64,000 bases of DNA, taken from NCBI RefSeq assembly GCF_024612015.1, contig NZ_CP102512.1:7502001-7566000 (forward strand), written 5' to 3'. The position numbers and the translations under genes were made by a program. The notes under the pieces were generated by a model. The model worked only from the letters and a program-made list of their open reading frames with translations, made no database searches and was not told where the DNA came from. The first letter of the stretch is position 1; each line of letters starts with the position of its first letter. This DNA is from Streptomyces sp. CA-210063 (GTDB lineage Bacteria > Actinomycetota > Actinomycetes > Streptomycetales > Streptomycetaceae). Below, piece by piece: positions 20,364 to 29,682 of this stretch.

Positions 20364-20475
20364 TTCTTCGGTTCCAGGGCCTGCGAGGAACGGGAACCCG
20401 TCACTAGGATCGACACGTTGATCCGATACCAACGCACGACGGGGCTCCCCGCCCCTGACTATCAAGGGAGGACTC

Positions 20476-21051
20476 GTGGGAGTCAGCCTCAGCAAGGGCG
20501 GCAACGTATCGCTGACCAAGGAGGCACCGGGCCTGACCGCGGTCATCGTCGGTCTTGGGTGGGACATCCGCACCACGACCGGCACCGACTTCGACCTCGA
20601 CGCCAGTGCTCTGCTGCTGGAATCGTCCGGCAAGGTCAGCAGCGACGCCAACTTCGTCTTCTTCAACAACCTCAAGAGCCCCGACGGCTCGGTCGAGCAC
20701 ACCGGTGACAACCTCACCGGTGAGGGCGAGGGCGACGACGAGCAGATCAAGGTCAATCTCGCGGGCGTCCCGGCAGAGATCGAGAAGATCGTCTTCCCCG
20801 TCTCGATCTACGACGCCGAGAACCGTCAGCAGTCCTTCGGCCAGGTCCGCAACGCCTTCATCCGGGTGGCGAACCAGGCCGGCGGTGCCGAGATCGCACG
20901 GTACGACCTCTCCGAGGACGCCTCCACCGAGACCGCCATGGTCTTCGGCGAGCTGTACCGGCACGGTGCCGAGTGGAAGTTCCGCGCCATCGGCCAGGGC
21001 TACGCCTCGGGCCTGCGCGGTATCGCCCAGGACTTCGGTGTGAACGTCTGA
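20476..21051 (+). CDS. terD: TerD-family stress protein, copy 1
   Basis: 191 residues, one TerD domain over the whole length. Calcium-binding features are present: [10 protein letters not shown] and the acidic loop [13 protein letters not shown]. It opens [14 protein letters not shown] as TerD/TerE/TerZ proteins do. GTG 20476 is preceded by GGGAGGACTC. TerD proteins bind Ca2+ and are tied to tellurite, phage and envelope stress, and in Streptomyces to development; the exact mechanism is unknown. First of a tandem pair, 161 bases before its twin. Confidence 0.95.
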
Positions 21052-21212
21052 GCCACCGGGGAAGACCCACTGGGCTCACCACGTCCGGCGCCGCTGTCAT
21101 CAACGACCGCGGCGCCGGTCGCGCTCGTACGACGTGGGCGGACGGCCCGCGCGTACGACCACAACTGAACAGCTGAGCAACTGAAGCTCGAAAATCGGGG
21201 AGGACCAGCACC

Positions 21213-21788
21213 ATGGGCGTCACACTCGCCAAGGGAGGCAATGTCTCCCTCTCCAAGGCCGCGCCGAACCTCACTCAGGTGATGGTCGGGCTCGGCTGGG
21301 ACGTCCGGACCACCACCGGAGCCCCATTCGATCTCGACGCCAGCGCCCTGCTCTGCCAGGGCGGCCGGGTGCTGGGGGACGAGTGGTTCGTCTTCTACAA
21401 CAACCTCAAGAGCCCCGAGGGCTCGGTCGAGCACACCGGTGACAACCTCACCGGTGAGGGCGACGGCGACGACGAGTCGCTCATCGTCGACCTCTCCAAG
21501 GTGCCGGCCACCGTCGACAAGATCGTCTTCCCGGTCTCCATCCATGACGCGGAGAACCGCGGCCAGGCCTTCGGCCAGGTCAGCAACGCCTTCATCCGCG
21601 TGGTCAACCAGGCCGACGGCCAGGAACTCGCCCGCTACGACCTCTCCGAGGACGCTTCCACCGAGACCGCGATGATCTTCGGGGAGGTCTACCGCTATGG
21701 CGGGGAGTGGAAGTTCCGCGCGGTGGGACAGGGGTACGCGTCCGGTCTGCGGGGCATCGCACTCGACTTCGGAGTCAATGTCTCGTAG
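21213..21788 (+). CDS. terD: TerD-family stress protein, copy 2
   Basis: 191 residues, the same length as copy 1 and closely similar along its entire length, with shared [22 protein letters not shown] and [13 protein letters not shown] blocks. That shows a tandem duplication. Calcium loop [13 protein letters not shown] is intact; [13 protein letters not shown] introduces a cysteine absent from copy 1. ATG 21213 has GGGGAGGACC upstream. It precedes the DUF475 membrane protein by 125 bases and is likely part of the same unit. Differences cluster in the surface loops, so the two may bind different partners. Confidence 0.95.
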
Positions 21789-21913
21789 CGCGATATGCGC
21801 AAAAGCCGGGGCCGTGTGGGGTGCGAGGGGTGCCCGACTAGACTTCGGGTTCAAAAGTTCGTAAAGCCGCGCGCGGCGCGGGGGAACCCCGTACACACAC
21901 GATTGGGTAGCCA

Positions 21914-23056
21914 GTGGTTCTGAAAACCTTCGGCTGGTCGTTCGCGGTCACCGCGCTCGGCTTGGTAGCAGCAGTTCTCTACGGTGGGTGGGCGGCGTTC
22001 GGTGTCGTCGCGATCCTGTCCGTCCTGGAGATCTCGCTGTCCTTCGACAACGCGGTGGTCAACGCCGGGATCCTGAAGAAGATGAATGCCTTCTGGCAGA
22101 AGATCTTCCTCACCATCGGCATCCTGATCGCCGTCTTCGGTATGCGGCTGGTCTTCCCCGTCGTCATCGTCGCCATCAGCGCCAAACTGGGTCCGATCGA
22201 GGCCGTCGACCTGGCGCTCACCGACAAGGACATGTACCAGCAGTACGTGACCGACGCCCACCCGTCGATCGCGGCCTTCGGCGGTATGTTCCTGCTGATG
22301 ATCTTCCTGGACTTCATCTTCGAGGACCGGGACATCAAGTGGCTGGGCTGGCTCGAGCGTCCGCTGTCCAAGCTCGGCAAGATCGACATGCTGTCGGCCT
22401 GCATCGCGATGATCGTCCTGCTGATCACCTCGATGACCTTCGCGACCAACGCCCACCAGCACGGCGGCGCCCACGTCGACAAGGCGCAGACCGTTCTGAT
22501 CTCCGGTCTCGCGGGCCTGATCACCTATCTCGTCGTCGGCGGTCTCTCCGGCTACTTCGAGGGCAAGCTGGAGGAAGAGGAGGAGCGCGAGCACGAGGAG
22601 GAGGAAGCGGCGGAGCGTACGGGCAAGCCGCGTTCGGCCGTCGCCCTCGCGGGCAAGGCCGCGTTCTTCATGTTCCTCTACCTGGAGGTCCTGGACGCGT
22701 CCTTCTCCTTCGACGGTGTCATCGGCGCCTTCGCCATCACCAACGACATCGTCCTGATGGCGCTGGGCCTCGGAATCGGCGCGATGTACGTCCGGTCGCT
22801 GACCGTATACCTGGTCCGCCAGGGCACCCTCGACGACTACGTCTACCTGGAGCACGGCGCGCACTACGCGATCGGCGCCCTCGCCGCGATCCTCCTCGTC
22901 ACCATCCAGTACGAGATCAACGAGTTCATCACCGGTTCCGTCGGTGTCATCCTGATCGCCTGGTCCTTCTGGTCCTCCGTCCGCCGCAACAAGGCGCTGG
23001 CGGCCGCGGAGGGAAAAGCTGACGCCTCCAAGGAGGAGGTCTCCTCCGGGGTGTGA
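21914..23056 (+). CDS. DUF475 / TerC-like membrane protein
   Basis: 380 residues, about nine membrane helices. Two copies of the TerC hallmark are present: LEISLSFDNAVVNAGIL (about 38) and LEVLDASFSFDGVIGAF (about 258). The acidic residues there probably bind metal. A Glu-rich loop (about 218-232) lies on the cytoplasmic side. TerC relatives move or sense Mn2+ or other ions and form membrane complexes with TerD proteins. GTG 21914 starts VVLKTFGWSF. Located between the terD pair and a TerA-like gene, so it is probably the membrane anchor of this Ter system. Confidence 0.9.
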   Translation: MVLKTFGWSFAVTALGLVAAVLYGGWAAFGVVAILSVLEISLSFDNAVVNAGILKKMNAFWQKIFLTIGILIAVFGMRLVFPVVIVAISAKLGPIEAVDLALTDKDMYQQYVTDAHPSIAAFGGMFLLMIFLDFIFEDRDIKWLGWLERPLSKLGKIDMLSACIAMIVLLITSMTFATNAHQHGGAHVDKAQTVLISGLAGLITYLVVGGLSGYFEGKLEEEEEREHEEEEAAERTGKPRSAVALAGKAAFFMFLYLEVLDASFSFDGVIGAFAITNDIVLMALGLGIGAMYVRSLTVYLVRQGTLDDYVYLEHGAHYAIGALAAILLVTIQYEINEFITGSVGVILIAWSFWSSVRRNKALAAAEGKADASKEEVSSGV

Positions 23057-23126
23057 CCCGGAACGCCGGGCCGGTGTGACCGGTTCCGGAGTGTGACGGC
23101 CCTCCGGGTGAGGGAACGCTCTGAGC

Positions 23127-23165
23127 GGGGCGGCCGACGAGGACTCGTCCTCCGTCGGCCGCCCC
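23127..23165 (+). terminator. Hairpin after DUF475/TerC gene
   Basis: GGGGCGGCCGACG (23127-23139) pairs with CGTCGGCCGCCCC (23153-23165); an inner GGAC/GTCC extends the stem. It lies 70 bases after the TerC-like stop. Probably ends or attenuates the terD-terD-terC transcript before the TerA-like gene. Confidence 0.75.
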
Positions 23166-23205
23166 GTGGTGGTTGACGCGACGACACGGCAGTTGTGGGG
23201 CGGGC

Positions 23206-23946
23206 ATGAGTTTCCTGGACAACCTCTGGCGCGGGCGGGCCACGGAGTTCGACGCGGGCAACGCGGCGACCAACGCGATCGAGCTGACCAAGCGGCACCA
23301 GAAGGTGTCCCTCAGCAAGCAGAACGCCGCGGCGGGGCACCTGCGCGTCAACCTGTCCTGGCGGATGCGGACGTCCGACATCGGCGGGATGAAGCGGCAG
23401 AGTGTGCTGCGGCACCCCTTCAAGGCGCTCAGGCCGGAGGAGGTGCAGGCGCACAGCCAGAGCATGGTGAACGTCGACCTCGACCTCGGCTGTCTGTATG
23501 AGCTGGCCGACGGGACGAAGGGGGTCGTGCAGCCGCTGGGCGGCTTCCTCGGTGACATCAACGAACCGCCGTACATGCGGCTCAGTGGGGACGACCGGTT
23601 CGGGTCGGGGTCCGGCGAGACGATGTACATCAATCTCGATCACCGCGAGAACTTCAAGCGGATGCTGGTGTTCGTCTACATCTACGACCAGACGCCGGCG
23701 TTCGACCGTACGCACGCGATCGTGACGCTGTATCCGAGCAATGGGCCGCGGATCGAGATAGGCCTGGATGAGAGGCATCCTCAGGCTCGGTCGTGTGCGG
23801 TGGTGATGATCGAGAACGTCAAGGGGGAGATCGTTGTGCGCCGGGAAGTGAAGTTTGTCTATGGCTTTCAGGCGGAGCTTGATCGGTTGTATGGGTGGGG
23901 GTTGCAGTGGGGGCGGGGTTACAAGACCAAGGCTGAGCAGAGGTGA
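23206..23946 (+). CDS. TerA-like tellurium-resistance family protein
   Basis: 246 residues. The centre (VNVDLDLGCLYELADGTKGVVQPLG, then SPPYMRLSGDDRFGSGSGE-type text) is the TerA/TerD-superfamily calcium-binding region. The end (IENVKGEIVVRREVKFVYGFQAELDRLYGWGLQW) is the usual TerA close. About 120 residues shorter than enterobacterial TerA. ATG 23206 (MSFLDNLWRGRATEF) is favoured over the upstream in-frame starts at 23173, which read into the hairpin. Same direction as the ter genes before it. Converges with the tailed TerD gene 51 bases on. Confidence 0.8.
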   Translation: MSFLDNLWRGRATEFDAGNAATNAIELTKRHQKVSLSKQNAAAGHLRVNLSWRMRTSDIGGMKRQSVLRHPFKALRPEEVQAHSQSMVNVDLDLGCLYELADGTKGVVQPLGGFLGDINEPPYMRLSGDDRFGSGSGETMYINLDHRENFKRMLVFVYIYDQTPAFDRTHAIVTLYPSNGPRIEIGLDERHPQARSCAVVMIENVKGEIVVRREVKFVYGFQAELDRLYGWGLQWGRGYKTKAEQR

Positions 23947-23951
23947 GGAAG

Positions 23952-23963
23952 CCCCGCGCCCCT
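23952..23963 (-). repeat. Partial palindromic element
   Basis: Only CCCCGCGCCCCT of the family core is present, without the TCGCGCAGTT half. A decayed or truncated copy between two convergent ter genes. Confidence 0.45.
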
Positions 23964-23997
23964 GAAAGCACCGGGGAGCCCCCTGGTTGCAAGCCCC

Positions 23998-24807
23998 TCA
24001 GCGCCCGATGAACTGCGGCCCCTGCGGGGGTAGGCGGAAGTCGGGGTTCAGGGCCGCCGCTGTGGGCTGGGGGTAGCCGTAGGCCGGGCCGTTGGCCGTG
24101 GCGGGGGTCGGCTGGGGGTAGCCGTAGGCCGGCTGGGACGGGACGCCGGCGGGGGGCTGCTCCGGGGGCAGGGGGGCCGAGATCTCCGGGGCCGGGGGCT
24201 GGGTCGTGGCCGTCTGGTCGGTCGCGGCCGCTGCGGCTGCCGCCGCCTCCGACTCGTCGACCGAGATGCCGAAGTCCGTGGCGAGGCCCTGGAGGCCGTT
24301 GGTGTAACCCTCACCCAGGGCGCGGAACTTCCAGCCGCCGCCGCGACGGTAGAGCTCGCCGCAGATGAGGGCGGTCTCGTCGCCGGTCTCGGGCTTGATG
24401 TCGAAGTACGCCAGCGGTTCGGCCTCGGCGACGGTGGCGTCGTACAGCAGGATGCGCAGGGACCGTACGCGGGCGAAGGAGACGGGGTTCCCGGAGACGT
24501 CGTCGGCGGAGGCCACGAGGAGAATCTGGCCGACGGCGGACTCGACACCCGCCAGATCGGTCTGGATGGTGTCGGTGAGGCCCTCGGCCACACGCTTTTT
24601 GCCGAGCCGCCACACCTTGCCCGAGGGGTGGCGTGGCTGGTTGTAGAAGACGAAGTCCTCGTCGGACCGTACGCGTCCGTCGAGACCGAGGAGCAGCGCC
24701 GAGGCGTCGACGTCCGGGGAGTCCTGACCCGGCGCCCAGCGCAGCACGGCACGGACCGCCGTGGCTTCGATCGGGACGTTCGACCCCTTCAGCATCGCGT
24801 GCGTCAT
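23998..24807 (-). CDS. TerD-family protein with Pro/Ala-rich tail
   Basis: 269 residues. The first ~180 form a TerD domain ([60 protein letters not shown]). The remaining ~85 residues are a disordered tail: an Ala run, then Pro-rich text with two copies of [14 protein letters not shown] motifs (YGYPQP at about 232 and 247). The canonical GDNLTGEG calcium loop of the other two TerDs is not kept. Opposite strand to the rest of the island and divergent from the CitE-like gene, so it may respond to its own signal. The tail may tether it to a partner. Confidence 0.88.
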
Positions 24808-24996
24808 GCGGTCATCCTGCCCTCTCGGTCCTGGTCACGACAACGCGGGGGCGGCGAACCGTCAGTGGAATCGTCCTGCGCCCGACATGGCCGGGTTACC
24901 AGAACTTCACGCCCGGCGGGAACTGATGTCACACATTTGTACGTACTATTACCGGCCACCATCGCGACGGCCGCCTAGCAGCCACGGGGGAATCAC

Positions 24997-26163
24997 ATGC
25001 GTCATTTCGGGCACATCGCCCCTGAGGAGCGTCAGCGCCTCTTCTACCGGGAGCCTGGTGAGTTCGACGCCGACTCCCCGGCCCGCGTGCTCGCCGCCGC
25101 CCTCGGCGCCACGCTCTACAGCCCGGCCACCCGCGAGCGGCTGGCCGACGACATCGTCAAGCAGGCCGGACGTGGCGTGGTCTCCATGGTGCTGTGCCTG
25201 GAGGACTCGATCGACGACGCGGAGGTCGTGGGCGCCGAGGAGAACCTGGTCCGGCAGTTCGCCGACCTCGCCGGCCGGCCGGACGTCGAGCTTCCGCTGC
25301 TGTTCATCCGGGTCCGCTTCCCCGAGCAGATACCCGACCTCGTCAGCCGTTTCGGCCCGGCGGTACGGCTGCTGTCCGGGTTCGTGTTCCCGAAGTTCAC
25401 CGAGGAGCGGGGCGTCGCGTTCCTGGAGGCGCTCACCGCCGCGGAGTCCGCGAGCGGGCGGCGGCTGTTCGGGATGCCGGTGCTGGAATCGCCCGAGTTG
25501 ATGTACAGGGAGACGCGCGTAGAAGCGCTCCAGGGCATCGCCCACACCGTCGACAAGTACCGCGACCGCGTCCTCGCGCTGCGCCTCGGCGTCACCGACT
25601 TCTGCTCCTCGTACGCGCTGCGCCGCCCGCCCGACATGACCGCGTACGACGTCCAGATCGTCGCCTCCGTGATCGCGGACGTGGTGAACGTGCTGGGGCG
25701 CGCCGACGGCACCGGATTCACGGTCACCGGGCCGGTGTGGGAGTACTTCCGGGTCCAGGAGCGGATGTTCAAGCCACAGCTGCGCACCAGCCCCTTCCTG
25801 GAGAACCGGGCCGGGCGGCTGCGCGAGACGCTCATCGAGCACGCGCTGGACGGTCTGCTGCGCGAGATCTCCCTCGACCAGGCCAACGGGCTGCTCGGCA
25901 AGACCTGCATCCATCCCTCGCACGTACTGCCGGTGCACGCGCTCTCCGTGGTCAGCCACGAGGAGTTCGGCGACGCCGAGGACATCGTGCGGCCCGACCG
26001 CAACGGCGGCGGAGTTCTGCGTTCCGCCTCCCGGAACAAGATGAACGAGGTCAAGCCGCATCGCGCCTGGGCCGAAAGGGTTCTGCAGCGCGCCGAGGTC
26101 TTCGGGGTCGCCAACGAGGACATCGGGTTCGTGGATCTCCTGGCCGCCGGGCTGCCCGACTGA
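24997..26163 (+). CDS. CitE-like / HpcH-HpaI aldolase-family enzyme of Ter module
   Basis: 388 residues, TIM-barrel of the CitE/HpcH group but longer. Metal/substrate residues are visible: CLEDSIDD (about 67-74) and the strand GFVFPKF; a Gly-Arg-Ala-Asp-Gly motif lies at about 238. CitE relatives cleave or form C-C bonds of acyl-CoA or oxo-acids with Mg2+. A CitE-like enzyme of this kind is a known partner of TerD in comparative-genomic work, together with phosphoribosyltransferases and a HAD protein. That is exactly the order here. Actual substrate unknown. Next gene starts 80 bases on. Confidence 0.82.
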   Translation: MRHFGHIAPEERQRLFYREPGEFDADSPARVLAAALGATLYSPATRERLADDIVKQAGRGVVSMVLCLEDSIDDAEVVGAEENLVRQFADLAGRPDVELPLLFIRVRFPEQIPDLVSRFGPAVRLLSGFVFPKFTEERGVAFLEALTAAESASGRRLFGMPVLESPELMYRETRVEALQGIAHTVDKYRDRVLALRLGVTDFCSSYALRRPPDMTAYDVQIVASVIADVVNVLGRADGTGFTVTGPVWEYFRVQERMFKPQLRTSPFLENRAGRLRETLIEHALDGLLREISLDQANGLLGKTCIHPSHVLPVHALSVVSHEEFGDAEDIVRPDRNGGGVLRSASRNKMNEVKPHRAWAERVLQRAEVFGVANEDIGFVDLLAAGLPD

Positions 26164-26242
26164 ACTTTCCGCTCACGCGGCTCATGTACCGACGCCCGTA
26201 TGCACGTCGTACCGTCGTACTGACGTACCGACTAAGGAATCG

Positions 26243-28864
26243 ATGATTAACGCAGCGAACGACACGACCGACACGACCGGCGCGTCCGGCGCGGTCTGGT
26301 CCGGGGCCTGGGTCGCCGAGCGGCTCGGGGTCGAACTGGTTGGCGACGAGGAGCTGAGCGGTCTGCTGGGGCTCGCGCTGCGGCGCAACCCCAAGCGGGC
26401 ACATCTGCTGGTGTCGAACGTGCTCGGCAAGCATGTGCCGCAGTCGCCGGCCGTCGTGCACGGCTACGGTTTCGAGCTCGGGCGCCGGGTGCGTGAGCTG
26501 CTGGGCGCGGCCGGGGCGCGGACCGCCGTCGTCCTCGGGTACGCCGAGACGGCCACCGGGCTCGGGCACTCGGTCGCGGACGGGGTGGGCGAGGCGCCCT
26601 ACCTCCACTCCACCCGGCGCCCGGTCGAGGGCGTCCACCAGGCGGGCGGCTTCGAGGAGTCCCACTCCCACGCGACGTCGCATCTGCTGCTGCCGGAGGA
26701 CCCCACGCTGCTCGCGGGGCGGGGGCCGCTGGTGCTCGTCGACGACGAGTTCTCCACCGGGAACACGGTGCTCAACACCATCCGGGCGCTGCACGAGCGG
26801 TACCCGCGGAAGCGGTACGTCGTCGTGGCGCTGGTCGACATGAGGTCGGCCGCCGACCAGGGGCGCCTGGCCGAGTTCGCTCAGGAGATCGGGGCGCGGG
26901 TCGATCTGGTGGCCGCGGCGAAGGGGACCGTGCGGCTGCCGGAGGGGGTGCTGGAGAAGGGGCAGGCGCTGGTCGCGGAGTACGAGAAGGCTGCGGCGCC
27001 CACGGCCGCGGCCCGGGCGGCGCAGGTCACCCGGGTCGAGCTGGGCTGGCCGGACGGGGTGCCCGATGGGGGGCGGCACGGCTTCACGCCCTCCCATCGT
27101 GCGCGTCTGGAGAGCGCGCTGCCCGGTATGGCCGCACGCCTCGCGGAGGCCTTGCCGCCCGGTGCCCGCCGGGTGCTCGTGCTCGGCTTCGAGGAGCTGA
27201 TGTACGCGCCGCTCGCGCTCGCGCGGGAGCTGGAGAAGTCGACGAACGGGCTGGAGAAGTCCGCGAACGGGCTGGAGATACGGTTCTCCACCACCACGCG
27301 GTCGCCCGTCCTCGCCGTCGACGACCCCGGTTACGCGATACGCAGCCGCATCGTCTTCCCCGCGCACGACGAGCCCGCGGACGGGCCGGGGGAGCGGTAC
27401 GCGTACAACGTGGCGGGCGGGGACTTCGACGCGGTCGTCGCCGTCGTCGACTCGACGGCGGACACGCCGGCCTTGCACGCCGCCGACGGCCTGCTGGCGA
27501 CCCTCGCCGCGCACACGCCGAGCGTGCTGCTCGCCGTGGTCCCGTCGTACACCCCGCCGGTCCGGCACCACCGGGCCGCACCGTCCCGGCCGAGCGCCGC
27601 CGCGGCGGGAAAAGAGGGCCGGCGGTTCGAGGGGACCGGAGTGAAGGAGCCGCTTGACGCGGCAGAACAGAAGAAGTCGATCTCGCCCGTCACCGAAAGG
27701 TCCTCCATGCTGCCCGAGCCCCTACGCGGCCCCGACTTCTCCTCCTACGCGCCGGACGAGGTCGGCTGGCTGCTGCGGGATCTCTCGGAGGTGACGCTGG
27801 AGGCGCCCACCGAGGAGCGGGAGGAGGCCATTCAGAGCGGCGGCGCGCACTACGCGGAGTCTCTGCCGGTCGAGTACCAGCCGAGTGAGCAGTACCAGGC
27901 GCTCTTCCACAGCGCGCTGGAGGCCTCCGCCGAGCGGATCGCCCTGGCTGTGGGGGTCGTCACCGAGACCCTGCTGGCCGAGCGGGCGGCGCGGCCCGTC
28001 CTCGTGTCGTTGGCCCGGGCCGGGACGCCCGTCGGGGTGCTGATGCGGCGGTGGGCGCAGTACCGGCATGGGGTCGAGGTGCCGCACTACGCCGTGTCGA
28101 TCGTGCGGGGCCGGGGTATCGACGCCAACGCGCTGCGGTGGCTGGCGGCCCATCATGACCCCGCCGCTGTCGTCTTCGTCGACGGCTGGACCGGCAAGGG
28201 GGCGATCACCCGTGAACTCGCCGCCGCGCTGCTGGAGTTCGAGGAGTCCGACGGGATCACCGGGTTCGATCCGGAGATCGCGGTGCTCGCCGATCCGGGG
28301 TCGTGTGTGCGGACGTACGGCACGCGGGAGGACTTCCTCATTCCGTCCGCCTGTCTCAACTCGACCGTCTCCGGGCTGATATCGCGGACCGTGCTGCGTT
28401 CGGATCTCGTCGGGCCCGACGACTTCCACGGGGCCAAGTTCTACCGGGAGCTGGCCGGCGTCGATGTGTCGGTGGAGTTCCTGGACGCCATAGCCGCGCG
28501 GTTCGCGGATGTCGTGGACGCCGTCGACGCCCGTACCAAGGAGCTGCTCGCCGCCGATCGCACGCCCACCTGGGAGGGCTGGGCGGCCGTCGAGCGCATC
28601 AGCGAGGAGTACGGGATCCACGACGTCAACCTGGTCAAGCCCGGTGTCGGCGAGACCACGCGCGTCCTGTTGCGCCGGGTACCGTGGAAGATCCTCGCGC
28701 GGGCCGGGGCGGGCGCGGACCTCGACCATGTACGTCTGCTCGCCGAACAGAGAGGGGTACCGGTGGAAGAGGTGGCCGAACTGCCGTACACCTGCGTGGG
28801 GTTGATCCACCCGCAGTACACGCGGGGCGCGACCGGCGCCGACGGTAAGGCGGTGGCGGTCTGA
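26243..28864 (+). CDS. Double phosphoribosyltransferase (PRTase_2-TRSP + StiP/PRTase_1)
   Basis: 873 residues in one frame. Residues ~20-245 form a type I phosphoribosyltransferase with the PRPP loop VLVDDEFSTGNT (about 165-176) and ETATGLGHSVAD. Residues ~255-440 fit the TRSP domain that follows such enzymes. A low-complexity linker comes next (about 450-490, PSRPSAAAAGKEGRRF...). Residues ~490-870 match the StiP/PRTase_1 family, with LVSLARAGTPVGVLMRRW and a second PRPP-like loop VFVDGWTGKG (about 643-652). An internal ATG at 27707 with GAAAGG 6 bases upstream could also yield the second half alone. Two PRTases imply two ribosylation steps on unknown bases. The stop overlaps the next ATG. 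Confidence 0.85.
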   Translation: MINAANDTTDTTGASGAVWSGAWVAERLGVELVGDEELSGLLGLALRRNPKRAHLLVSNVLGKHVPQSPAVVHGYGFELGRRVRELLGAAGARTAVVLGYAETATGLGHSVADGVGEAPYLHSTRRPVEGVHQAGGFEESHSHATSHLLLPEDPTLLAGRGPLVLVDDEFSTGNTVLNTIRALHERYPRKRYVVVALVDMRSAADQGRLAEFAQEIGARVDLVAAAKGTVRLPEGVLEKGQALVAEYEKAAAPTAAARAAQVTRVELGWPDGVPDGGRHGFTPSHRARLESALPGMAARLAEALPPGARRVLVLGFEELMYAPLALARELEKSTNGLEKSANGLEIRFSTTTRSPVLAVDDPGYAIRSRIVFPAHDEPADGPGERYAYNVAGGDFDAVVAVVDSTADTPALHAADGLLATLAAHTPSVLLAVVPSYTPPVRHHRAAPSRPSAAAAGKEGRRFEGTGVKEPLDAAEQKKSISPVTERSSMLPEPLRGPDFSSYAPDEVGWLLRDLSEVTLEAPTEEREEAIQSGGAHYAESLPVEYQPSEQYQALFHSALEASAERIALAVGVVTETLLAERAARPVLVSLARAGTPVGVLMRRWAQYRHGVEVPHYAVSIVRGRGIDANALRWLAAHHDPAAVVFVDGWTGKGAITRELAAALLEFEESDGITGFDPEIAVLADPGSCVRTYGTREDFLIPSACLNSTVSGLISRTVLRSDLVGPDDFHGAKFYRELAGVDVSVEFLDAIAARFADVVDAVDARTKELLAADRTPTWEGWAAVERISEEYGIHDVNLVKPGVGETTRVLLRRVPWKILARAGAGADLDHVRLLAEQRGVPVEEVAELPYTCVGLIHPQYTRGATGADGKAVAV

Positions 28865-29682
28865 TGCCGGGCCCCCAGGTTCTTGTGGCGAGCGATCTCG
28901 ACCGTACGCTCATCTACTCGGCCGCCGCGCTCGCGCTGACGATGCCGGACGCACACGCGCCCCGGCTGCTCACCGTCGAGGTGCACGAGAGCAAGCCGCT
29001 GTCGTACATGACGGAGACGGCCTCGCGGCTGCTCGCGGAGCTGGGGGACGCGGCGGTGTTCGTGCCGACGACGACCCGGACGCGCAAGCAGTACCAGCGG
29101 ATCAATCTGCCGGGGCCGGAGCCGACGTACGCGATCTGCGCCAACGGCGGGCATCTGCTGGTTGACGGTGTCACGGACGTCGCCTGGTACGAGCGGGTCA
29201 CGGCGCGGCTCGCGGACGAGTGCGCGTCGCTCGCGGAGGTGCGGGACCATCTGGCGGCCACGACCGACCCGGCGTGGGTGCGTAAGCACCGCGTCGCGGA
29301 GGATCTGTTCGTCTATCTCGTCGTGGAGCGTGAGCTGCTGCCCGAGGAGTGGGTGAAGGATCTGGCGGTGTGGGCGGAGAACCGGGGGTGGACCGTGTCG
29401 CTCCAGGGGCGCAAGCTCTATGCCGTGCCGAAGCCGCTCACCAAGAGCGCGGCCATGCGTGAGGTCGCGCGGAGGACCGGGGCGGAGTTGACGTTGGCCG
29501 CGGGGGATTCGTTGCTCGATGCGGATCTGTTGCTCGCGGTGGATCGGGCCTGGCGGCCCGGGCATGGGGAGCTGGCGGATGCGGGGTGGGTGGGGCCGGC
29601 GGTCAGTGCTCTTCCCGAGCGGGGTGTGTTGGCCGGGGAGCGGATTCTGCGGGAGTTTCTGCGGGCCGTGAAGGAAGGCTGA
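28864..29682 (+). CDS. HAD-superfamily hydrolase of Ter module
   Basis: 272 residues. Motif I is SDLDRTLIYS (nucleophile Asp11, acid Asp13); motif II is the PTTTRTRKQYQ strand; motif IV is AAGDSLLDADLLLAVD with the Mg2+ aspartates. The C2-type cap between them resembles sucrose-phosphate/mannosyl phosphatases, so it should remove phosphate from a sugar- or nucleotide-like product. It overlaps the PRTase stop by one base (TGATG), so the two proteins are translationally coupled and probably act in sequence. Completes the Ter-associated metabolite module. Confidence 0.88.
   Translation: MPGPQVLVASDLDRTLIYSAAALALTMPDAHAPRLLTVEVHESKPLSYMTETASRLLAELGDAAVFVPTTTRTRKQYQRINLPGPEPTYAICANGGHLLVDGVTDVAWYERVTARLADECASLAEVRDHLAATTDPAWVRKHRVAEDLFVYLVVERELLPEEWVKDLAVWAENRGWTVSLQGRKLYAVPKPLTKSAAMREVARRTGAELTLAAGDSLLDADLLLAVDRAWRPGHGELADAGWVGPAVSALPERGVLAGERILREFLRAVKEG

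Follow-up and report, generated by a model that had tools for sequence, protein, structure and literature searches.

Anantharaman, Iyer and Aravind reportedly predicted, in 2012, a module of enzymes associated with Ter genes together with its nucleotide-like product, and that product is said to have been a prediction only ever since. The subject of this study is a locus of this type in Streptomyces sp. CA-210063, where terD genes lie beside genes for a CitE-like enzyme, a fusion protein with a phosphoribosyltransferase (PRTase) domain, and a phosphatase of the HAD superfamily. It was analysed within a stretch of 64,000 nucleotides (the window), which spans bases 7,502,001-7,566,000 of a single 10.86-Mb contig; window coordinates are used below unless stated otherwise. 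The Ter-associated nucleoside-type module is described in PMC8115787 and PMC7824862. Our locus shares with that module the CitE-like, PRTase_2 with TRSP, PF11202 (StiP) with PELOTA, and HAD genes next to TerD and TerC genes; it differs in that an ATP-grasp gene lies ~6.1 Mb away, the PRTase and StiP are fused, and sites resembling those of extracytoplasmic function (ECF) sigma factors are found at both operons.

The ter cluster of the Pseudomonas aeruginosa plasmid Rms139 likewise has ATP-grasp, PRTase_2, StiP-PELOTA, CitE and HAD genes beside terZABCDE, but they form a single run that includes the ATP-grasp, the PRTase and StiP genes are separate, a trypsin-like gene and TerB are present, and its StiP is without the cysteine discussed below. 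In the same cluster (L030:10809-11948), a partial TerD domain is joined to a trypsin-like peptidase. The Ter cluster of the Lactococcus plasmid pFI430 (L029) has CitE, PRTase_2, StiP, HAD, terD and DUF475 genes and, as at our locus, no ATP-grasp is annotated in the fetched stretch; unlike our locus, it carries YceG and toxic-anion-resistance (TelA) genes, its PRTase and StiP are separate, and TerA is not annotated. The sco2368 locus of Streptomyces coelicolor has, like ours, a TerD gene; sco2368 is listed as under sigma-E control in PMC6767563, where the protein is reported to rise after vancomycin. No study of the enzymes adjacent to sco2368 was found among the open-licence papers searched, except for SCO2362 in one expression table. 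Among open-licence papers, we found no report of the product, of a split ATP-grasp, or of a promoter common to terD and the CitE operon.

The locus is a real and conserved one of an already-known kind, here in a variant with a dispersed ligase. The description in our initial annotation, as a candidate for an undescribed pathway, was too strong, since the module is already in Pfam and in the literature; the Pfam text for PF15632 reads 'ATP-grasp in the biosynthetic pathway with Ter operon'.

Results

Gene content and conservation of the locus

The CitE-like C-C bond lyase is encoded on the forward strand at 24997..26163 (PF15617, 1.1e-120). It is followed, on the same strand, by a single open reading frame (26243..28864) for an 873-residue fusion protein, PRTase_2-TRSP-StiP-PELOTA, in which all four domains score above cut-off. 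The N-terminal half (26243..27679) holds PRTase_2 (residues 41-229, 5.5e-69) and TRSP (275-418, 4.7e-38), and the C-terminal half (27680..28864) holds StiP/PF11202 (500-750, 1.3e-106) and PELOTA_1 (777-856, 3.5e-35), the boundary between them (27679/27680) being our choice. The gene for the HAD-superfamily phosphatase (28864..29682, forward strand) begins within the stop of the fusion gene, and this TGATG overlap, which the initial annotation had pointed out, is real. The HAD protein has a DLDRT motif near its N terminus, is homologous to the HAD proteins encoded at other Ter loci and matches two distinct trehalose-phosphatase chains at 3.3e-9; no Pfam family was matched at 1e-3. Because the CitE, PRTase_2/TRSP, PF11202/PELOTA and HAD domains and linked TerD/TerC genes are all present, the locus belongs to the published Ter-associated nucleotide-type module, as had been suggested.

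Gene order was kept across 16 fetched Streptomycetaceae loci, and the locus is therefore more than a chance arrangement. The CitE, PRTase_2, StiP and HAD genes were found in all 16, and terD1, terD2, DUF475 and the TerA-like gene in 15 (L046 ends at a contig end before the ter genes). The tailed terD and DUF3052 were each present in 15, and AhpE and aceE in 14; L050 is without the tailed terD and AhpE, and the L042 stretch, which is apparently the same as L145, stops short of aceE. CitE scored better than 1e-80 in 109 of 121 Streptomycetaceae genomes; absence was a line drawn by us, and covers eight genomes with weak matches only (9.1e-4 to 3.8e-7) and four blanks. Four loci of another family in the same class have the core, terD and DUF475 in a different arrangement. 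Among named proteins, those nearest to the StiP half come from S. europaeiscabiei (96%), S. capitiformicae and S. scabiei (both 92%).

Linkage was counted (distance of at most 9.5 kb, 1e-5) in 80 named loci, which were the best 80 of at least 593 and a Firmicutes-heavy set, the first query sequence being from Brevibacillus. StiP was found in 80, CitE in 79, PRTase_2 in 79, HAD in 78 and ATP-grasp in 22 (L128 and L131 are the same genome, with identical ATP-grasps); TerD was linked in 75, YceG in 39, TelA in 37, TerA in 31, TerC in 27, the vWA query in 11 and TerB in 9. Thus, the enzyme genes are the common core of Ter modules and not special to the window, and this core frequently occurs without an ATP-grasp in cis. 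Since an ATP-grasp was within the fetched flanks of 22 of the 80 loci, we treated it as accessory.

A single stop-free frame covers both PRTase_2 and StiP in 26 of 99 loci, including ones from Streptomyces, Nocardia, Pelosinus and two Paenibacillus as well as two loci of the other actinobacterial family. This repeated fusion argues for joint action of the two proteins. Among the 16 Streptomycetaceae loci (L041-L056), the PRTase and StiP are in one frame in eight and separate in the rest, so that fusion varies within the family.

All the genes named in the initial annotation, on the ter side as well as the enzyme side, lie where it had placed them. The forward-strand ter genes are terD1 (20476..21051; PF02342, 3.7e-88; solved homologue 3ibz, 8.3e-118), terD2 (21213..21788; PF02342, 5.8e-84), a gene for a DUF475/TerC-family membrane protein (21914..23056; PF04332, 3.2e-138; PF03741, 2.5e-20) and a TerA-like gene (23206..23946, with an alternative TTG start possible at 23173), the product of which matches plasmid TerA at 39% over 220 residues and has a sub-threshold TerD match only in Pfam. 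The tailed TerD is encoded on the reverse strand (23998..24807), divergent from the enzyme operon, with PF02342 covering residues 1-179 of 269 (2e-45) and a Pro-rich C-terminal tail behind it. For TerB of the classical terZABCDEF operon, a search of the window with one plasmid query gave nothing at 1e-4. Genome-wide there are 15 TerD-domain matches, 12 of them outside the window and several in open frames of 420-700 codons. An anti-phage interpretation was considered and set aside, as PADLOC gave no match for eight proteins.

A distal ATP-grasp gene

No PF15632 ATP-grasp was found within the window, in agreement with the initial annotation, which had offered a reduced or a split module as the explanation. 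The best PF15632 match in the genome (132 bits; match C1:1399646) is a gene at contig positions 1,398,908-1,400,188, ~6.1 Mb from the locus. The apparently missing ATP-grasp is probably this gene, far away on the same chromosome. The module therefore looks split, and not reduced, in its own genome, while the ATP-grasp looks lacking in many relatives. A search for an ATP-grasp near other terD copies had been suggested; it did yield an ATP-grasp, and the surrounding 19 kb contained nothing that matched terD at 1e-6. The gene is flanked by a phosphopantetheinyl transferase/metallophosphoesterase pair on one side and a sulfotransferase on the other. Co-inheritance of the ATP-grasp with its Streptomyces neighbours was rejected, since a phosphopantetheinyl transferase is near in only 7 of 20 Streptomycetaceae ATP-grasp regions, our own included. 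A weak or short TerD-like match lies ~9 kb from the ATP-grasp in L072 and L073.

Compared with the 22 Ter-linked Firmicutes ATP-grasps, the distal protein shows 29-38% identity across 291-338 residues (7e-65 to 8e-49); it is more distant from the Pseudomonas plasmid ATP-grasp (30%, 4e-24). Two PF15632 proteins from CitE-less actinobacteria match it at 25% (6e-6) and 21% (0.002). A maximum-likelihood tree of 41 rows separated the Streptomyces copies and the Ter-linked ones from these two proteins with support of 100/99, in an analysis where the bootstrap was unsettled, three rows were very long, the outside proteins numbered only two and the Pseudomonas row sat inside the Streptomyces group on a very long branch. 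Three Streptomycetaceae genomes (G045, G102 and G105) each encode two ATP-grasps of the clade of the distal copy, 57-63% and 38-40% identical to our own.

Among the 121 Streptomycetaceae genomes, scanned at 1e-20 with the 14 best candidates scored per genome, an ATP-grasp was found in 54 of the 109 with CitE and in none of the 12 without. In a genus with both states, the counts were 8 of 9 with CitE and 0 of 5 without. In the family of the Paenibacillus albidus genome (245 genomes), CitE and ATP-grasp occurred in the same 97 genomes and neither in the other 148, with both genes on one contig in 96 of the 97, 4.3-5.0 kb from start to start. The lines used here were 1e-40 for CitE and better than 1e-80 for ATP-grasp, the latter set afterwards; by it, the 34%-identical ATP-grasps of G505 and G671, which have no CitE, were counted as paralogues. 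In a phylum survey of 346 genomes, all eight ATP-grasp genomes of at least 117 bits have CitE, 14 other ATP-grasp genomes (best matches of 58-97 bits) are without CitE at 1e-50, and 6 of 14 CitE genomes are without ATP-grasp at 1e-15.

Unlinked copies were sought for 48 of the 80 named loci, comprising 45 of the 58 without a linked ATP-grasp and 3 of the 22 linked ones as positive controls, all three of which were found; the other 13 were excluded as metagenome bins, as fragments or as an additional strain of a species. An unlinked copy was present in 12 of the 45 core genomes (seven Bacillus/Neobacillus and five Streptomycetaceae), and in five of the seven from Bacillus/Neobacillus a terD lies 0.7-0.9 kb from it. 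We read the ATP-grasp as an accessory ligase of the module, which is in cis in some lineages, was split off in Streptomyces and is often lost.

Domain features of the enzymes

In the CitE-like protein, ED (residues 69-70) and GKT.IHP are invariant in six sequences, and CitE structures match the CitE-like profile, with a best value of 2.2e-10. The phosphoribosyl pyrophosphate (PRPP) loop of PRTase_2 is conserved: across 98 sequences, D167, D168 and E169 occur without exception (100%) and T172 in 99%. The best matches among solved structures are PyrR-type chains (0.0022).

The fusion protein had been labelled a double phosphoribosyltransferase. The label holds only for the first half, which alone has the PRPP loop (in PRTase_2), and is doubtful for the whole; comparison of the StiP and PRTase_2 profiles gave no signal in favour of StiP as a second PRTase (hhalign P 0.034-0.25). 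By eye, the order of motifs in StiP is PRTase-like, yet the acidic pair DD is replaced by DG. We read the protein as a PRTase_2 half joined to a StiP half. Should it have a further PRTase-like domain, a degenerate one, this is more likely to be TRSP than StiP. Comparison of the TRSP and PRTase_2 profiles gave a score of 33.4 (P 1.3e-4, hhalign probability 54%), as against 12.2 for the reversed profile, at most 22.5 for 60 column shuffles and at most 22.0 for the CitE, HAD, ATP-grasp and StiP profiles, and the TTRSP motif lines up with the STRRP motif of PRTase_2. TRSP would appear to be a degenerate PRTase-like repeat of PRTase_2, on a modest signal.

No solved relative of StiP was found by sequence, the best hits being ribosomal proteins at E 0.33 or worse. 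The DGWTGKG motif is invariant in 156 StiP sequences.

Promoter-like sites at the two operons

Exact matches to an ECF-sigma-like pattern lie 5' of terD1 (GGAAC-N18-CGTT, 20393..20419) and 5' of the CitE gene (GGAAC-N18-CGTA, 24919..24945), both on the forward strand. With the window included, GGAAC-N18-CGTW was present upstream of terD1 in 20 of 21 loci (dinucleotide-shuffle mean 0.05; two of 23 loci had been dropped by an identity or length filter) and upstream of CitE in 12 of 23 (mean 0.09), and nine other upstream sets gave counts of 0 or 1. The window has four matches as against 0.75 expected (2 of 100 shuffles reach four), two of them at the starts of terD1 and CitE. The background, taken from 15 unrelated regions, was three sites in 597,030 strand-bases, and one further site was seen in an unrelated stretch (L014). 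At 5.85 Mb in the same genome, a site ends ~76 bp before the start codon of a canonical terD.

These sites fit the pattern of sigma-E-type ECF factors, with GGAAC at -35, ~17-18 bp, and CGT at -10, whereas the -10 is CGTT or CGTA here and CGTC in most listed sigma-E sites. According to PMC10771440, S. coelicolor sigma-E sites have a GGAAC-like -35, and in 59 of 100 the spacer is 18 bp long, although spacers may have been counted differently there; sco2368 is itself listed in the sigma-E regulon (PMC6767563). The sites shared by terD1, CitE and a third terD suggest co-regulation, and the locus is probably under a common ECF sigma, where the site cannot tell sigma-E from other ECF sigmas. The tie between ter genes and enzymes, proposed at the outset, is thus supported by synteny, linkage and a shared promoter-like site.

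A second motif, GGTYAC-N6-TTCAY, was seen upstream of CitE at 24894-24910; it occurs in 9 of 23 loci, against a single-base shuffle mean of 0.01, and six other upstream sets contain no copy of it. It resembles a PhoP or GlnR half-site. Sven_2176/SCO2362 is listed as GlnR-dependent and more than five-fold induced by nitrogen starvation. SCO2362 may be the fusion gene, the sole basis being an assumed consecutive numbering from SCO2368.

Discussion

The gene content and order of the locus, its conservation, the co-occurrence of its genes and the conservation of motifs are direct observations. Our preferred reading, held with moderate confidence, is that the Ter-associated nucleotide-type module takes this form in Streptomycetaceae and works as follows. 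An ECF sigma of the sigma-E kind would activate both operons of the locus, that of terD1 and that of the enzymes, together with one or more distant terD genes, as the shared sites suggest, and the inducing condition may be envelope or oxidative stress. Going by the protein families, the CitE-like enzyme would make or cleave a small carboxylated compound, PRTase_2 would add ribose-5-phosphate from PRPP with TRSP as a non-catalytic PRTase-like repeat, and the HAD enzyme would strip phosphate. StiP-PELOTA, fused to the PRTase, could have this same intermediate as its substrate or else work on its target, an RNA or a protein. The pathway could end with an optional ligation, in which the ATP-grasp encoded ~6.1 Mb away would couple an amino compound to a carboxylate of the product. 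TerD/TerA proteins, close to the TerC-like membrane protein, may have the product or a divalent metal as their ligand.

Several findings weigh against this reading. At 1e-20, with the 14 best candidates scored per genome, 55 of the 109 core-bearing Streptomycetaceae genomes show no ATP-grasp, and 33 of the 45 core genomes without a linked ATP-grasp show none at 1e-15; the ATP-grasp therefore cannot be essential to the core. The contrast of 54/109 with 0/12 has a probability of 5e-4 by simple sampling, which ignores kinship and leaves descent uncorrected, and the aceE tree of the mixed genus shows one joint loss and one loss of ATP-grasp alone, which bears on the same contrast. No close terD was found in any of the 20 Streptomycetaceae ATP-grasp regions, where the neighbours are not Ter genes, and no promoter-like site was found upstream of the ATP-grasp in the nine of these regions with a placeable start. 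At the core itself, the CitE-side site is limited to about half of the loci (12 of 23). Five terD loci elsewhere in the genome (L003, L004 and L006-L008) have the site upstream in one only, a further site in the 5.85-Mb terD region lies elsewhere than upstream of that terD, and PMC6767563 proposes a different sco2368 promoter, 317 bp upstream. No experiment on the product or the enzymes was found in the literature searched.

The frequency of the core without any ATP-grasp may instead indicate that the module is reduced, the four-gene core being complete without a ligase and the distal ATP-grasp serving another pathway to which only shared ancestry connects it. The neighbours of the distal gene, with no Ter gene in 19 kb, fit this explanation, which we regard as possible rather than likely. 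It does not readily account for the result that no ATP-grasp was found without the core in Streptomycetaceae (0/12), for the identical gene sets in the Paenibacillus albidus family (97 and 97 of 245), or for the terD that adjoins five of the seven unlinked Bacillus/Neobacillus ATP-grasps.

A role in repair or turnover with no signal involved, in which StiP-PELOTA on RNA or the ribosome would process damaged protein or RNA while PRTase_2, CitE and HAD recycle base and ribose, appears unlikely. It would draw on the RNA-binding PELOTA domain, on the Pfam name of PF11202 and on NCBI protein names, which label StiP a cysteine protease. In one set (A6), drawn from Firmicutes, actinobacteria and a single Blastocatellia bin, StiP has Cys225 in 36 of 36 sequences; His250 is present in all 156. 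However, all 120 proteins retrieved with a Pseudomonas query have Ile or Val at the position of Cys225, and in none of the remaining columns does Cys exceed half in both sets. A cysteine protease acting through that residue is therefore ruled out as the activity of the whole family, and the name is doubtful in that sense; no paper showing such an activity of StiP was found in the literature searched, and the name is absent from PMC10318531. Moreover, the fusion and the operon order place StiP with the PRTase.

That ter genes and enzymes are neighbours without a common function, co-inherited in Streptomycetaceae and expressed and used separately, is the least probable explanation: the tailed terD does sit between them on the opposite strand, synteny extends over the entire region from aceE onwards (so that linkage within the family carries little independent weight) and GlnR dependence under nitrogen starvation is listed for SCO2362, possibly the fusion gene to judge by gene order, but the linkage is seen again in Firmicutes, in other actinobacteria and on plasmids, where the gene orders differ, and a promoter-like site is common to terD1 and CitE.

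Our preferred reading, a Ter-associated nucleotide-type module under ECF sigma control, can be extended to a more speculative form, which we think improbable as it stands: a sigma-E-type stress regulon of Streptomyces might make a nucleotide-like signal in a core form, from the CitE-PRTase-HAD operon, or in a ligated form confined to lineages that retained a transposed Ter ATP-grasp, and the presence or absence of this gene might switch the chemical signal that TerD proteins read.

The locus places the core of the module on the chromosome of a genetically tractable genus. The ligase is unlinked, and half of the family genomes examined yielded none. Because the ligase is unlinked, the core and the ligation step would be separable by comparison of species and by single deletions, and the predicted pathway should be easier to test; the promoter-like sites that the operons share hint at a suitable stress.

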